Shown in pieces: positions 572 through 42,775 of a stretch of 64,000 nucleotides of DNA. The notes beneath the pieces are model-generated. The model saw only the letters and a program-made list of their open reading frames with translations. It was not told where the DNA came from and did no database searches. The number at the start of each line of letters is the position of its first letter. The stretch's first letter is position 1. The position numbers and the translations under genes were made by a program. Source of the stretch: Desulfatitalea alkaliphila (GTDB lineage Bacteria > Desulfobacterota > Desulfobacteria > Desulfobacterales > Desulfosarcinaceae); the NCBI RefSeq assembly GCF_022968795.1, contig NZ_JALJRB010000006.1, forward strand, positions 62,001 through 126,000, in the 5' to 3' direction.

Positions 572-3514
572 ATGCACCGGGACACCGGCAAAGGGGAACG
601 CCCCCCCTCTTTTTTTGTGGGCATCGGCGCATCGGCCGGTGGGCTGGAAGCGCTGGAGGCCTTTTTCGCCCACATGCCGGCGAACAGCGGCATGGCGTTT
701 GTCGTGATACAGCATCTGGCGCCGGATTACAAAAGCTTGATGGTCGAACTGCTTTCCAAGCGCACGGCCATGGCGGTCCGCCGCGCCGAGCAAGGCATGC
801 GGGTTGAACCCGACACGGTTTATCTGATTCCGCCGCGCAAGCATCTGACCATCTTCCACGGAAAACTGATCCTGAAAGAGCATGATCACGGCAAGGGGCT
901 CAACTTGCCCATCGACATATTTCTTCATTCGCTGGCCCAGGACCAGGCCGAAAAAGCCATTGCCATTATTCTATCGGGCACCGGGAGCGATGGCGTGCGC
1001 GGCATCCGGGCCATTAAGGAAGCCGGTGGCATGATCATGGTGCAAAGCGAGGCCTCGGCCAAGTTCGACGGCATGCCCCGGGCGGCCGTGGCCACCGGCT
1101 TGGCCGATATTGTGCTGCCGCCGGAGGAGATGCCCGCACGCTTGTTGGGTTTCATCAGACAGCCGATAGCCGACCCGGCGCATCGGACGCCGGTCCTGTT
1201 CTCGGACGCGGATGGGCTGGACCGAATTTTTCAGTTACTGCGCGAGCAAACCAAGGTCGATTTCACGCTTTACAAGCCCAGCACCGTCATGCGCCGTATC
1301 GAACGGCGCATGACGGTCACCCAGGCGGAGGATCTGAACGCTTATGTGCGGGTTTTGGAAACCCGTCCGATCGAAGTGGCCACGCTTTACCGGGAACTTT
1401 TGATCAGCGTCACCAGTTTTTTTCGCGACCATTCGGTGTTCGATGCCCTGCGGACCCACTATTTGCCGTCGCTCCTGAGGAGCGTCGGCAACCGGGAGCT
1501 GCGTTTCTGGGTACCCGGTTGCGCCACGGGCGAAGAGGCGTATACTTTGGCGATCCTGGTGCGGGAGAGCATGGCCGGGCTGGGTGATGCGCGGAACATC
1601 AAAATCTTTGCGACCGATCTGGACCGCGATGCCCTGCTCAATGCCGGCAACGGTGTCTACCCCGACAGCATCGGCGCGGATCTGCCCGCCGGCCTGTTGA
1701 CGAAATATTTCGTGCACCGGGAACACACCTTTCAAGTGCAGCGCCAAATACGGGAGATGGTCGTTTTTGCCCAGCACAATCTGGCCAAAGATCCCCCCTT
1801 TACCAACATCGATCTGGTGAGCTGCCGCAACCTGCTGATCTACCTGCAGCCCGCCCTGCAGCAGAAAGTGATGGCGTTCATCAACTTTTCCCTCAATCCG
1901 GGAGGCCTTTTGCTGCTTGGAACGAGCGAGACGCCCGGCGAAGCGATTGAATTGTTCGAAACGCTGGATCACAAATTGAAGATTTACCGGTCCCGCGGCC
2001 GCAAACGGCCGCTGGCCGGCGTTCCGTTCCAGGTGTCGGCGCACACGCCGCTGGAAACGACGGCGGTGCGCTTCGACAGCGGAAGACGGGTCTTGAGCGC
2101 GCGCCAGGAAGAGCGGATGCAGGAGCATCTGCTGGAGGCCTTGGCCGCCGACTACGGGTTTGCCCTTGCGGTGGTCAATGAGCACCTGGACCTGCTGTTT
2201 CTGGCGGGTGAGACCGATGGGCTTTTACGCCTGCCTTCGGGCAGGGTGCACAATGACATCACCCGCATGGCGGTCAAGGAGTTGTCCATTCCTCTGGCCA
2301 CCGGGTTGCAGAAGGTTTTCGGCAGTGGTGACGAGATCCGGTACACCAACATTCGGTTACCGTCCGGTGCGGGCGTTCGCACGATGCAGATGCGCATGCG
2401 GCTGTTGCCGGCCAAGAAAGGCCACGAACGCATCGCGGTGGTGGCCATTGAGTCCGCGGCATCCCCCCAAAACGAACTTCCGGCCAATGGGACCCAGGCG
2501 TACGATCTGAGCCAGGAGGCCGAACAGCGCATACACGATCTGGAGCAGGACCTGCAATTCACCAAAGAGAACCTGCAAGCCACCATCGAGGAGTTGGAGA
2601 CCGCCAACGAAGAGCTCCAGGCCACCAATGAAGAGCTGCTGGCCAGCAACGAGGAGCTGCAAAGCACCAATGAAGAGCTGCAGTCGGTCAACGAGGAACT
2701 GCACACGGTCAACGCCGAGTATCAAAGCAAAATTCTCGAATTGACCGAAACCACCAACGATCTGGACAATCTCATCGCCGCCACGAACATCGCGACCCTC
2801 TTTCTGGACGAAAATTTGGAAATCCGTAAATTCACGCCGGCATTGGAAAAGATATACCGCATTACCGAAGCGGACCTGGGCCGGCCCTTGTTTCACCTCG
2901 CCCACTGCCTGGAGGGGATCGAGCCGCTGACCACTGTGCAAACGGTGGTCGGCGGCAACCGGATGATCGAACAGGAATGCCGGACAAGGGACGGGGATTG
3001 GTTTTTAATGCGGGTGCTGCCTTACGCCGTCGGCGGAGGAGAGACATCGGGAATTGTACTGACCTTTACGGATATCGGACCACTCAAGCAAATCCAGGCG
3101 GATCTGAGCATGGAGCGGTCCCAGCTGCTGTCCGTCTTCAACAGTATCGACCACATTATCTATGTGGCCGATATGGACGACTACACGGTTCTGTTCGCCA
3201 ACGAAACGGCCCGCAAAGTTTACGGGGAGAGGATCGAGGGCGGCATTTGCCATGAGGTGCTGCAGCAAAGATCGGAACCTTGTGATTTCTGTACCAACGT
3301 CATTATCCGGGCGAATCCGGGTGTACCCCACCGATGGGAATACCGCAGCCCCGTCACCGGGGCGGACTACGACATCACGGACCGGGTGATTCATTGGCCC
3401 GACGGGCGGTCGGTGCGATTGGAGTTGGCGGTTGACATCACCGAACGCAAGCGGATGGAAATGGCACTGTGCGAGGTCGTTGAATCCGGTGAAGCCGATA
3501 GCGGGAACAGATGA
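572..3514 (+). CDS. CheB-CheR-PAS fusion chemotaxis protein
   Basis: A 980-residue multidomain protein. Residues about 12-195 are a CheB methylesterase without its usual receiver; the catalytic triad is visible as Ser21 (GASAGG), His48 (IQHL) and Asp140 (SGTGSDG). Residues about 215-480 are a CheR methyltransferase with the SAM-binding FWVPGCATGEEAYTLA. A coiled coil of repeated EEL..NEEL heptads (about 673-715) leads into two PAS regions (about 720-840 and 850-970). Such fusions usually adjust receptor-like proteins or act in kinase signalling rather than classical chemotaxis. The start is chosen for the strong CGGAGGT site 4 bases upstream of ATG. The stop overlaps the next start by ATGA, so it is probably translationally coupled with the following histidine kinase. 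Confidence 0.93.
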   Translation: MHRDTGKGERPPSFFVGIGASAGGLEALEAFFAHMPANSGMAFVVIQHLAPDYKSLMVELLSKRTAMAVRRAEQGMRVEPDTVYLIPPRKHLTIFHGKLILKEHDHGKGLNLPIDIFLHSLAQDQAEKAIAIILSGTGSDGVRGIRAIKEAGGMIMVQSEASAKFDGMPRAAVATGLADIVLPPEEMPARLLGFIRQPIADPAHRTPVLFSDADGLDRIFQLLREQTKVDFTLYKPSTVMRRIERRMTVTQAEDLNAYVRVLETRPIEVATLYRELLISVTSFFRDHSVFDALRTHYLPSLLRSVGNRELRFWVPGCATGEEAYTLAILVRESMAGLGDARNIKIFATDLDRDALLNAGNGVYPDSIGADLPAGLLTKYFVHREHTFQVQRQIREMVVFAQHNLAKDPPFTNIDLVSCRNLLIYLQPALQQKVMAFINFSLNPGGLLLLGTSETPGEAIELFETLDHKLKIYRSRGRKRPLAGVPFQVSAHTPLETTAVRFDSGRRVLSARQEERMQEHLLEALAADYGFALAVVNEHLDLLFLAGETDGLLRLPSGRVHNDITRMAVKELSIPLATGLQKVFGSGDEIRYTNIRLPSGAGVRTMQMRMRLLPAKKGHERIAVVAIESAASPQNELPANGTQAYDLSQEAEQRIHDLEQDLQFTKENLQATIEELETANEELQATNEELLASNEELQSTNEELQSVNEELHTVNAEYQSKILELTETTNDLDNLIAATNIATLFLDENLEIRKFTPALEKIYRITEADLGRPLFHLAHCLEGIEPLTTVQTVVGGNRMIEQECRTRDGDWFLMRVLPYAVGGGETSGIVLTFTDIGPLKQIQADLSMERSQLLSVFNSIDHIIYVADMDDYTVLFANETARKVYGERIEGGICHEVLQQRSEPCDFCTNVIIRANPGVPHRWEYRSPVTGADYDITDRVIHWPDGRSVRLELAVDITERKRMEMALCEVVESGEADSGNR
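2588..2717 (+). repeat. In-gene 21-bp heptad repeat coding a coiled coil
   Basis: Six imperfect 21-base units encode EEL-x-x-x-N heptads (variants of EELQATN) within the CheB-CheR-PAS gene. The protein repeat is typical of this fusion family and forms the signalling coiled coil between the CheR and PAS domains. The DNA repeat is a possible site of unit gain or loss. Confidence 0.8.
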
Positions 3515-39467: not shown

Positions 39468-39560
39468 TCCCTTCCCGGAATCGGTTTGCGGCAACGGTCC
39501 TTCGGGTGCCTTTTTACCATACACCAAGCAAACCCACCAGCCGAGCCCTGCGGGCCAGTT

Positions 39561-39710
39561 TTAAGTTTTAAGTTTTAAGTTTTGATGGTCTCGTAAAAAG
39601 TCGGAATTTTCAATTTTCGACGCTGTAAGTACCTAAATTTATACGATGGCAATTTGCAAAAACACCGTTTTTGGGACTTTTTACGAGGCCATCAAACTTA
39701 AAACTTGAAC
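39561..39710. repeat. MITE-like inverted-repeat element
   Basis: Bases 39581-39602 and 39675-39696 are inverted copies of a 22-base sequence (TTTGATGGTCTCGTAAAAAG with TC; 21 of 22 match). Outside them, TTTTAAG direct repeats on the left are mirrored by CTTAAAAC on the right, extending the symmetry. The core between is AT-rich and codes nothing. The form (about 150 bases, long terminal inverted repeats, no gene) fits a non-autonomous transposable element or a large cruciform. Confidence 0.75.
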
Positions 39711-39753
39711 CTCGCACCACACCCAGTGAAAATCCCCCATCCGCCATTCTTGT

Positions 39754-39782
39754 TTGACTTGGCGCCGTTTTTCTTTTATCAA
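39754..39782 (+). promoter_or_regulatory. Sigma-70 promoter for pabA-pabBC
   Basis: TTGACT (39754-39759) and TATCAA (39777-39782) are spaced by exactly 17 bases. Transcription would start near 39789, leaving a leader of about 110 bases before pabA that contains two hairpins. Confidence 0.65.
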
Positions 39783-39851
39783 TTGTTCAAAATCAGCAAC
39801 AACGCTCCTGCGGCCAACGGCAGGGCGTAAAATGAGTTATGCCATAGGCCC

Positions 39852-39886
39852 AGCCACCCAGACTCATGTCGGGGTGGCTTTTTTTA
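39852..39886 (+). terminator. Leader intrinsic terminator upstream of pabA (candidate attenuator)
   Basis: AGCCACCC (39852-39859) and GGGTGGCT (39872-39879) form an 8-bp stem with a 12-base loop, followed at once by a run of T. It lies in the pabA leader, 15 bases before the start codon, with no rightward gene upstream to terminate, so it is probably regulatory. ATGAGT at 39832-39837 is complementary to ACTCAT (39862-39867) in the loop and could form a competing fold. An earlier hairpin sits at 39803-39827. Confidence 0.7.
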
Positions 39887-39900
39887 ATGGAGGCGACGGC

Positions 39901-40575
39901 ATGCCCATATTACTGGTGATCGACAACTACGACTCTTTTACCTACAACCTAGTGCAGATGTTCCGCCGCTACCCCCTCGATATCCGGGTGGCGCGCAGCG
40001 ATGCCATCGATCCGGTCGAAGTCGCCGCCCTGGCCCCCGATTACATCCTGATCAGCCCGGGCCCCAAGGATCCGGCCCATGCCGGCGTTTCCATGCCCCT
40101 GATACGGCAATGGCATGCCAAAGTGCCCATCCTGGGGGTATGTTTGGGCATGCAGTGCATCAACGAGGTGTTCGGCGGCCGCACCGTGCGGGCCACCCAA
40201 CCGCTGCACGGCAAAACCAGCACCGTGGTGCACGACGGACGAGGGCTGTTCGCCGGCATGCCGTCCCCGTTTCAGGCGGCGCGGTACCACAGCCTGATGG
40301 CGGCCCCTGCGCCGGACGCCCTGCGCCGCCACTTGACCATCACCGCCCGCACCGCCGACGGTACCATCATGGGCTTGGAACACCGGCGCCATCCGCTGTG
40401 CGGGGTGCAATTTCATCCGGAAAGTTTCCTCACCGAGCAAGGTTTCACCCTGGTGGAAAATTTTCTGCAACGCGGACCCTTGAAGGATCTCCATGAATCT
40501 CAAAGCAGTCCCCTCTCCCTTTGCGGATCTTCCGGGCATGGACACCGTGACCGGCGTCCATGCCCGGCCCTTTGA
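39901..40575 (+). CDS. pabA: Aminodeoxychorismate/anthranilate synthase amidotransferase PabA
   Basis: A 224-residue class-I glutamine amidotransferase. The nucleophile is Cys81 (GVCLGMQC), the oxyanion region is ISPGPKDP, and the His-Glu pair is in GVQFHPESF. It supplies ammonia to PabB for p-aminobenzoate (folate) synthesis; alone it could also serve anthranilate synthase. GGAGG at 39890-39894 sets ATG 39901; an in-frame upstream ATG at 39832 lies inside the leader hairpins and lacks a ribosome site. The C-terminus runs about 30 residues past the usual end and overlaps pabB by 83 bases, so the two are tightly coupled. Confidence 0.92.
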   Translation: MPILLVIDNYDSFTYNLVQMFRRYPLDIRVARSDAIDPVEVAALAPDYILISPGPKDPAHAGVSMPLIRQWHAKVPILGVCLGMQCINEVFGGRTVRATQPLHGKTSTVVHDGRGLFAGMPSPFQAARYHSLMAAPAPDALRRHLTITARTADGTIMGLEHRRHPLCGVQFHPESFLTEQGFTLVENFLQRGPLKDLHESQSSPLSLCGSSGHGHRDRRPCPAL

Positions 40576-42775
40576 CCTGCGGGAGCCCTTCGAGGCGTTG
40601 TGCGCCCGCTTCGCCGCCTTGCCGGGCACGGTGGCCTTGCTCAGCGGCGGCGATCTGGACTGCGCGCGGTACCACCTGCTCGGCCTGTGGCCATGGATGG
40701 TCCTGTCCGGCCGCGCCGGCCGGGTGATCCTGAGCGTGGACGGCACCCCGCACCGGATCGACGCGCCGCCCCTGGCCGTGCTGGAGACGTTGCTGGACCG
40801 CTTGCAGTTGCCCACCGGACAGTGGCCGGCACCCATGGCAGCGGGGTTGATGGGCTACCTGGCCTACGACCTCAAGGATGATCTGGAGCGCCTGCCGCGC
40901 ACCAGCGTGGACGACCTTCTCCTGCCCCACATGCTGTTCTTTGCACCGTCGCTGCTGGTCGTGCACGACAAAACCACCGGCGCCACCCGTTTGATGGTCC
41001 CCCTGCGTGCCCGCGCCTCGGAGACCCCGGATCATATCATCGATGGGTTCCGCGCCGCATGCGATGGACCGCCGGCCGAAGCGGCCCCCTTTTGTCTGCC
41101 CGCCGCCGGCCGCCGGGCCAACGTCACACCCGAGGCCTACCAACAGGCCGTGGGACGGGTGATCGACTACATCGCCGCCGGCGATGTTTATCAAGTCAAT
41201 CTTTCCCAGCGCTTCCAGGTGCCCTTCGACGGCGATGCCTACGCCCTGTTTCGCCACCTTTACGCCCGCAACCCGGCCCCCTTTTTCGCCTTCATCCAGG
41301 CCGGCGACCATCAGATCGTCTCCACCTCTCCCGAGCGGTTCGTGCAGCAATCCGGTCGCCGGGTGGAGGCCCGCCCCATCAAGGGCACCCGGCCGCGGGG
41401 GGCCACCGCCGAGGCCGATGCGGCCCTGCGAGCGGAACTGGCCGCCAGCACCAAGGACGATGCCGAGCTTTCCATGATCGTCGACCTGCTGCGCAACGAC
41501 CTGGGCAAGGTGTGCCGGGCCGGCAGCGTACATGTGACCGAGCACAAGCGCATCGAGGCCTATCGGAATGTCTACCACCTGGTCACCCGGGTGGAGGGCG
41601 AGCTGGATAGGGATACAGGGAGTGTCGACCTGATCCGGGCCGCCTTTCCCGGCGGCTCCATCACCGGCTGTCCCAAGGTGCGGGCCATGGAGATCATCGA
41701 CGAGCTGGAGCCCTGCCGCAGGCATCTCTATTGCGGCAGCATCGGCTACATCAGCCTGCACGACACCATGGATCTGTCCATCGCCATCCGCACCGCCATC
41801 ATCACGGGCGGGATCCTCCACTATTCCGCCGGCGGCGGGGTGGTCTACGATTCCGATCCCCGCAGCGAATACGAGGAAACCTTGCACAAGGCCCACACCC
41901 TGCTGACCGCCTGCCAGGCCACGGCGACGGATGCCGTGGATCCCTCCAATGCGGTGGTGTGGTGCAACGGCCGCCTGCAACCCGCCGCCGAAGCCGCCGT
42001 GCCCGTTGCCGACCAGGGACTGCTCTACGGCTACGGCTTTTTCGAAACCCTGCGGGCGGACCATGGCCGTGCGCCCTTGCTGGCGGCCCACCTGGCGCGT
42101 TTCAACGCCACCTGGCGCGCGTTGATGCCCGATCCGCCACCGGATGTCACCTGGGATGCGGTGATCGCCGCGGTGATCGCCGCCAATGGCTTGCAAGTCG
42201 GATGTGCCGCCGTCAAACTGTTGGCCACCCGCGGCAGCCGCGCCGCGGCGCCCTGGGACCACACCCTGCTGGTGACCGCCCGGCCCTACACCCATCGGGC
42301 GGCCGTCCATGAGAGCGGTGGCCTTGCCCTGGGCACTTATCCCCATCCGCGCCAAAGCCCCTTGGCGGATCACAAGACCCTCAACTATCTCTACTATCTG
42401 CAAGCCGGCCAATGGGCCGCGGCCAAGGGCCATGACGAAGCCTTGATCCTCAACCCCGACGGAACGGTTTCGGAGACCAACACCGCCAACCTTTTGCTGA
42501 TCGAAGGCCGGGAGGTGTCGCGTCCCGAATCGCCGGCGGTTTTGCCCGGCGTCATGGCGGCGGCCGTTTGCGACCAACTGGCCCGCTGGGGCTATCGCAT
42601 CCGTTGGCGCCCGGTCCAGCCTTCGGAATTGCACGGTACCGGGCAGCTCCTGGCCGCCAACGCCCTCATGGGCGCAGTGCCGATCCACGCCATCGACGGC
42701 CGCCCAAGGCCCGCAGGCGGGCCGCTGTGGCGTCGCATCAACGACGCCATTCTTCCCGGTTGGGAGGGGGCGTAA
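40493..42775 (+). CDS. pabB: PabB-PabC fusion: aminodeoxychorismate synthase component I and aminodeoxychorismate lyase
   Basis: A 760-residue bifunctional enzyme. Residues about 1-475 are the chorismate-binding component with PIKGTRPRG (295-303; the Lys in this motif is diagnostic of PabB over TrpE), STSPERF, MIVDLLRNDL and SITGCPKVRAMEIIDELEP. Residues about 480-760 are a class IV aminotransferase-like lyase (PabC) with DQGLLYGYGFFETLR and the cofactor lysine in DHKTLNYLYYLQ, plus SETNTANLL. Together with PabA it converts chorismate to p-aminobenzoate in two steps. The start lies within the pabA 3' end. Confidence 0.94.
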   Translation: MNLKAVPSPFADLPGMDTVTGVHARPFDLREPFEALCARFAALPGTVALLSGGDLDCARYHLLGLWPWMVLSGRAGRVILSVDGTPHRIDAPPLAVLETLLDRLQLPTGQWPAPMAAGLMGYLAYDLKDDLERLPRTSVDDLLLPHMLFFAPSLLVVHDKTTGATRLMVPLRARASETPDHIIDGFRAACDGPPAEAAPFCLPAAGRRANVTPEAYQQAVGRVIDYIAAGDVYQVNLSQRFQVPFDGDAYALFRHLYARNPAPFFAFIQAGDHQIVSTSPERFVQQSGRRVEARPIKGTRPRGATAEADAALRAELAASTKDDAELSMIVDLLRNDLGKVCRAGSVHVTEHKRIEAYRNVYHLVTRVEGELDRDTGSVDLIRAAFPGGSITGCPKVRAMEIIDELEPCRRHLYCGSIGYISLHDTMDLSIAIRTAIITGGILHYSAGGGVVYDSDPRSEYEETLHKAHTLLTACQATATDAVDPSNAVVWCNGRLQPAAEAAVPVADQGLLYGYGFFETLRADHGRAPLLAAHLARFNATWRALMPDPPPDVTWDAVIAAVIAANGLQVGCAAVKLLATRGSRAAAPWDHTLLVTARPYTHRAAVHESGGLALGTYPHPRQSPLADHKTLNYLYYLQAGQWAAAKGHDEALILNPDGTVSETNTANLLLIEGREVSRPESPAVLPGVMAAAVCDQLARWGYRIRWRPVQPSELHGTGQLLAANALMGAVPIHAIDGRPRPAGGPLWRRINDAILPGWEGA

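Follow-up and report, generated by a model that had tools for sequence, protein, structure and literature searches.

A conserved leader RNA with competing folds upstream of pabA in Desulfatitalea alkaliphila and its probable role in p-aminobenzoate supply

RAT antiterminators, the targets of BglG, SacY and LicT, are small hairpins with an asymmetric internal loop that overlap a terminator and exclude it, and the systems built on them control sugar genes. Among the riboswitches of folate metabolism, THF-II (the folE motif), which recognises THF or dihydrofolate by the pterin moiety, has been reported from Rhizobiales. It lies before folE, the right arm of its P1 containing the ribosome-binding site (RBS) (PMC6800512), and works as an OFF switch through the RBS and without a terminator; a conserved pyrimidine in J12 and a pyrimidine in J21 together form its pocket (PMC6800512, PMC9881143). 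The ZTP riboswitch (pfl) responds to folate stress by switching transcription on (PMC7337938, PMC7484762) and controls one-carbon and purine genes. A third RNA, the gcsH motif (WRC-77-1), is a weak riboswitch candidate of Desulfobacteraceae with six representatives, found before gcsH (PMC11109978). In the open-licence literature we found no riboswitch for the supply of p-aminobenzoate (pABA), an earlier description elsewhere being possible, and nothing relevant on bacterial pABA importers.

The RNA described here lies in the pabA leader of Desulfatitalea alkaliphila, within a window of 64,000 nucleotides that makes up the whole stretch of DNA analysed. It is a conserved element that is absent from Rfam and occurs in many sulfate reducers and some spirochaetes. 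Rfam scans at gathering and permissive thresholds returned no relevant family in the window, in the leader (E <= 5) or in eight relatives (E <= 2), in agreement with an earlier sequence-only reading of this DNA, according to which no known folate or ZTP riboswitch signature fits. The closest likeness is to THF-II, which also has about 60 nt, the order P1, asymmetric internal loop with conserved bases, P2, and a folate-pathway gene behind it (PMC6800512, PMC9881143); in the pabA-leader RNA, moreover, a near-invariant pyrimidine directly precedes AGG, and the strand across from it has a C/U. By analogy, these facing conserved pyrimidines recall the hold of THF-II on the pterin ring (PMC9881143). 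However, J21 is one nucleotide in THF-II and three in the pabA-leader RNA, the latter gives no match to the folE-motif model, and genes, phyla and expression platform all differ: instead of folE, the element precedes pabA or pabB, a Na+:solute symporter (SSS) gene or a LivK-type gene, and, unlike in THF-II, the 3' strand of P1 lies in the terminator loop and the Shine-Dalgarno sequence falls outside P1. With the ZTP riboswitch the pabA-leader RNA would share its regulatory logic, but the pfl aptamer is a separate Rfam model without a match here. The gcsH motif is likewise a candidate regulatory RNA, from Desulfobacteraceae (PMC11109978), and is set apart from the pabA-leader RNA by its description (six representatives, before gcsH).

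The sigma-70 promoter that the sequence-only reading had placed ahead of the leader is present (Table 1). Its hexamers match the consensus at 9 of 12 positions, transcription is predicted to start near 39789, and TTGAC occurs at most 110 nt upstream of the element in 127 of 189 relatives as against 17 when shuffled. A generic promoter scan skipped the -10 hexamer TATCAA because it requires a T at position 6. The leader as a whole folds with z = -3.0. A hairpin in its 5' part, which had also been claimed as a feature of the leader, is indeed predicted by folding, but relatives show unrelated hairpins in its place or none; as it is kept only in close relatives, we rejected it as a part of the element, which starts at about 39829.

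Table 1. Features of the pabA leader and operon (positions in the window).
Feature	Position	Strand	Details
Promoter	39754..39782	+	-35 TTGACT 39754-39759, 17-nt spacer, -10 TATCAA 39777-39782; read from sequence
Accessory hairpin, 5' part of leader	39803..39827	+	predicted by folding; outside conserved element
Antiterminator / putative aptamer	39832..39867	+	conserved in about 190 relatives
P1	39832-39838 with 39861-39867 and 39840-39841 with 39859-39860	+	A39839 bulged; covariation 0/500 shuffles
Asymmetric internal loop	39842-39846 / 39856-39858	+	part of putative aptamer
P2	39847-39849 with 39853-39855	+	C-G to U-A change
Intrinsic terminator	39852..39885	+	stem 39852-39859 / 39872-39879; T-run 39879-39885; ACTCAT in loop
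Shine-Dalgarno GGAGG of pabA	39889..39893	+	read from sequence
pabA, gene under predicted control; encodes the glutamine amidotransferase of aminodeoxychorismate synthase	39901..40575	+	TIGR00566 195 bits, cut-off 121
pabB-pabC fusion (aminodeoxychorismate synthase component I and aminodeoxychorismate lyase)	40493..42775	+	same operon, downstream of pabA

Behind pabA, the pabB part of the fusion gene scores 346 bits with TIGR00553 against a cut-off of 328, and the C-terminal part matches the aminodeoxychorismate lyase PRK06092 with a score under the cut-off. The pabA and pabBC frames overlap by about 83 bases (40493-40575) if the first ATG starts pabBC. Separate from pabA, a TrpG-like paralogue of 50% identity lies on another contig of the genome (G000:C45). 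In D. alkaliphila the leader is itself open in the pabA frame, from TTG 39754 to ATG 39901 (39754-39903), so an automatic gene caller may place the pabA start too early.

The conserved core spans 39832-39885 and has the layout P1-[UUAUG-N2-5-YAGGY / RCCAYCC-(A/C)G]-P2, its 3' strand doubling as the 5' arm of the terminator. A consensus of 32 sequences reads TGAGTTATGnAAYAGGC-loop-GCCACCCAGRCTCA-n-GGGTGGCTTTTTT. The bases that stay unpaired and hardly vary comprise UUAUG and, ahead of GG, the pyrimidine-A in the 5' strand, together with A-Y-C in the 3' strand. As the sequence-only reading had it, ATGAGT (39832-39837) can pair with ACTCAT (39862-39867), which sits in the loop of a terminator whose T-run ends 15 nt ahead of the pabA ATG. 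The terminator by itself reaches -19.9 kcal/mol (z = -5.6). As long as the last strand has yet to be transcribed, P1 belongs to the minimum-energy fold in 175 of 186 nascent RNAs (nascent mean -9.1 kcal/mol); the complete RNA has a mean of -22.2 kcal/mol, and in D. alkaliphila and one relative its fold is the terminator. Both folds draw on the same GCCACCC strand. An H-type pseudoknot of P1 and the terminator was considered and rejected because in four elements no base separates the 3' strand of P1 from the 3' arm of the terminator. Judged by this shared strand, P1/P2 and the terminator are mutually exclusive, as the claim of competing folds had implied; since the two are unable to coexist, the hairpin is an antiterminator that would need help to win.

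The covariance comparison that had been suggested as a check found that P1 and the terminator both covary well above controls. In alignments that were fitted to the P1/P2 model, and are thus somewhat biased toward it, P1 shows both-sided changes in 7 pairs and 95 cells against a shuffled mean of 34.5; 0 of 500 shuffles reach 95, and controls in which P1 was slid give at most 40 cells. The terminator has 61 cells against 17.4 when shuffled, again with 0 of 500 shuffles reaching this level. Like the model-fitted alignments, the original MAFFT alignment supports covariation of P1/P2, and a second sequence set agrees on P1. Taken together, the covariation of P1 and of the terminator excludes chance.

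When 60 relatives were searched with the leader as DNA query, only its 3' part matched, at 76-95% identity, and the matches lie upstream of PabA at a variable distance; the element is present at all 30 PabA loci fetched from relatives. Among genomes that are related to each other and in some cases incomplete, covariance model R1 matched 172 of 389 genomes of the class, and R2, in which variants are included, matched 78 in a sample of 395 from the phylum. Seven strong matches come from 7 Spirochaetota genomes and all precede the same SSS family (42-56% identity), and 249 genomes of a Firmicutes phylum gave one weak match. Weak R2 matches in L295-L299 have no core and were discarded as false.

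Of 192 distinct elements, 149 are followed by pabA, 29 by an SSS gene, 8 by a LivK-type gene and 2 by pabB; the other 4 are unassigned, one of these at a contig end. A divergent copy of the element (L288 in G706, 2001-2071, minus strand) lies before a gene for an isochorismatase-family hydrolase, a context that may reflect a further step related to chorismate or pABA, unless the match is due to chance. At another locus (L325 in G083, 201-256) a strong element of 65 bits has no pabA, SSS or LivK gene within 1.8 kb and is possibly an orphan or degraded locus.

The SSS proteins form one family of Na+:solute symporter, with PanF as the nearest equivalog (172 bits against a cut-off of 328), and the LivK-type proteins one family of ABC substrate-binding protein (Peripla_BP_6) whose distant solved relatives bind amino acids, urea and other extracellular ligands. 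A PabB over the TIGR00553 cut-off is found in 20 of 21 pabA-type genomes as against 1 of 37 transporter-type genomes (Fisher p 2e-13, in a test that ignores relatedness), and the lower-scoring TIGR00553 matches fall in the TrpE range. The exceptions are a LivK-type genome with such a PabB (G519) and a pabA-type genome without one (G154), the latter perhaps owing to assembly gaps. A search of 28 pabA-type and 8 LivK-type genomes for the SSS homologue (E <= 1e-60) gave none; that the 26 SSS-type genomes have it is a consequence of their selection. The pabA, SSS and LivK arrangements are thus nearly exclusive. Because the arrangements nearly exclude each other in this way, the element is probably a control element of pABA supply that precedes whichever gene supplies pABA, and the SSS and LivK-type transporters become candidate importers of pABA or of a pABA source, a substrate that we infer from gene context. 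The simplest reading is that genomes without pabB depend on the import of pABA or of a source of it, and that whichever gene does the supplying has been joined to this one RNA. The suggestion that this could be a new element controlling pABA synthesis therefore stands as far as a conserved attenuator without Rfam match before pabA is concerned, but has to be widened beyond synthesis alone, as the element also precedes two transporter families. Most SSS-associated elements carry GCCAUCCCG instead of GCCACCCAG; given that both forms precede pabA and transporters, they do not by themselves mark two ligands.

Our preferred reading, to which we assign a probability of roughly 0.55, is that the leader acts in cis as a transcription-attenuation element for pABA supply, with an ON riboswitch as its likeliest form. 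The comparison shows that the sequence is conserved, that there are two folds which exclude each other, and which genes follow; the binding of a small molecule and the ON polarity are what we infer. The first structure to form in the nascent RNA would be the P1/P2 hairpin, complete with the conserved asymmetric internal loop. Without stabilisation, the following GGGGTGGC strand would capture CCACCC, the terminator would form and polymerase would halt before pabA, and a signal of pABA shortage at the internal loop would keep P1/P2 in place, block the terminator and let pabA-pabBC be transcribed. In relatives without pabB the same switch would drive the SSS Na+ symporter or the LivK-type ABC transporter, importing pABA or its source. 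The helper of the antiterminator may be a ligand, which would make the RNA an ON switch, or a protein. As is general for riboswitches, a covarying 5' leader with conserved unpaired residues stands before metabolically related genes, and the expression platform excludes the aptamer, the 3' strand of P1/P2 being the 5' arm of the terminator. Where the sequence-only reading had left the choice between an attenuator and a riboswitch, the covariation of two competing folds upholds the attenuator, and the riboswitch is our interpretation.

With regard to the ligand, ON control of pABA supply means that the signal must rise when pABA is short, and pABA itself, although the obvious candidate for feedback, would for this reason be ill-suited. 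Chorismate is a poor fit because it would not report the need for pABA import. Our best guess is a pterin that builds up at low pABA, with 6-hydroxymethyl-7,8-dihydropterin diphosphate (DHPPP), which dihydropteroate synthase joins to pABA, fitting best, or else another shortage signal. We put forward more tentatively, and at somewhat less than even odds, that the RNA is a new riboswitch class of Desulfobacterota and Spirochaetota that turns on pABA supply when a pterin, for instance DHPPP, signals pABA limitation, and that it marks the SSS symporter and the LivK-type ABC transporter as pABA importers that replace lost pabAB. One short RNA would then mark the gene that feeds pABA into folate synthesis in two phyla, give a testable function to two uncharacterised transporter families, and predict which sulfate reducers and spirochaetes rely on neighbouring organisms to supply a vitamin precursor. 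With a pathway intermediate such as DHPPP as its ligand, the RNA would sense when the two branches converging on dihydropteroate synthase, which sulfonamides target, are out of balance.

We consider it unlikely that the helper is instead an RNA-binding protein, one that responds to folate or pABA status and, like LicT, SacY or BglG, keeps the terminator from forming by binding the hairpin. The layout is RAT-like, with a hairpin of about 30 nt and an asymmetric internal loop overlapping the terminator, and a short conserved internal loop would suit a protein site as well. However, PF03123 (CAT_RBD) is present in 0 of 22 element-bearing genomes, the controls E. coli and B. subtilis being positive, so that a BglG-type protein was rejected as the antiterminator; moreover, no candidate protein is linked to the element, and the genes immediately downstream encode enzymes and transporters.

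It is also rather improbable that the RNA is a riboswitch whose ligand is pABA or some folate end product, whether binding favours the terminator (an OFF switch) or pABA induces expression. End-product repression is the usual logic of biosynthesis genes, and a regulon confined to pABA supply genes would suit a pABA-specific signal. Nevertheless, the conserved loop belongs to the fold that excludes the terminator, so stabilisation by a ligand should turn the genes on, and a pseudoknot joining P1 to the terminator is ruled out where the helices directly adjoin. Folate as the ligand further predicts that the element is found on other folate genes, but all assigned contexts concern pABA supply.

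A conserved terminator without switching, for example a read-through terminator that fixes a constant low expression, would account for the strong covarying terminator and is nonetheless very improbable: the 5' strand of the hairpin (GAGUUAUG-N-YAGGY) lies outside the terminator and is equally conserved, P1 covaries on both sides in many lineages, and terminator function alone cannot account for the invariant UUAUG and YAGG outside its stem. Ribosome stalling on a leader peptide is barely credible, even with a leader open in the pabA frame in D. alkaliphila and an AUG within the invariant UUAUG, since translation from this AUG would end after one or two residues (M-stop or MX-stop) in 83 of 189 relatives and yield longer peptides, unrelated to one another, in the rest, P2 loop lengths vary out of frame, pABA is no amino acid, and the short open reading frame keeps neither frame nor length over the competing hairpins.

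A permissive Rfam scan also gave miRNA matches at 39560-39714, outside the element, which are spurious and owed to an A/T-rich, near-perfect palindrome of about 120 nt (39573-39700; GATGGTCTCGTAAAAAGTC ... GACTTTTTACGAGGCCATC) directly upstream of the pabA promoter. This palindrome is bordered by TTTTAAG/CTTAAAA-type repeats and looks like a small mobile or MITE-like repeat.
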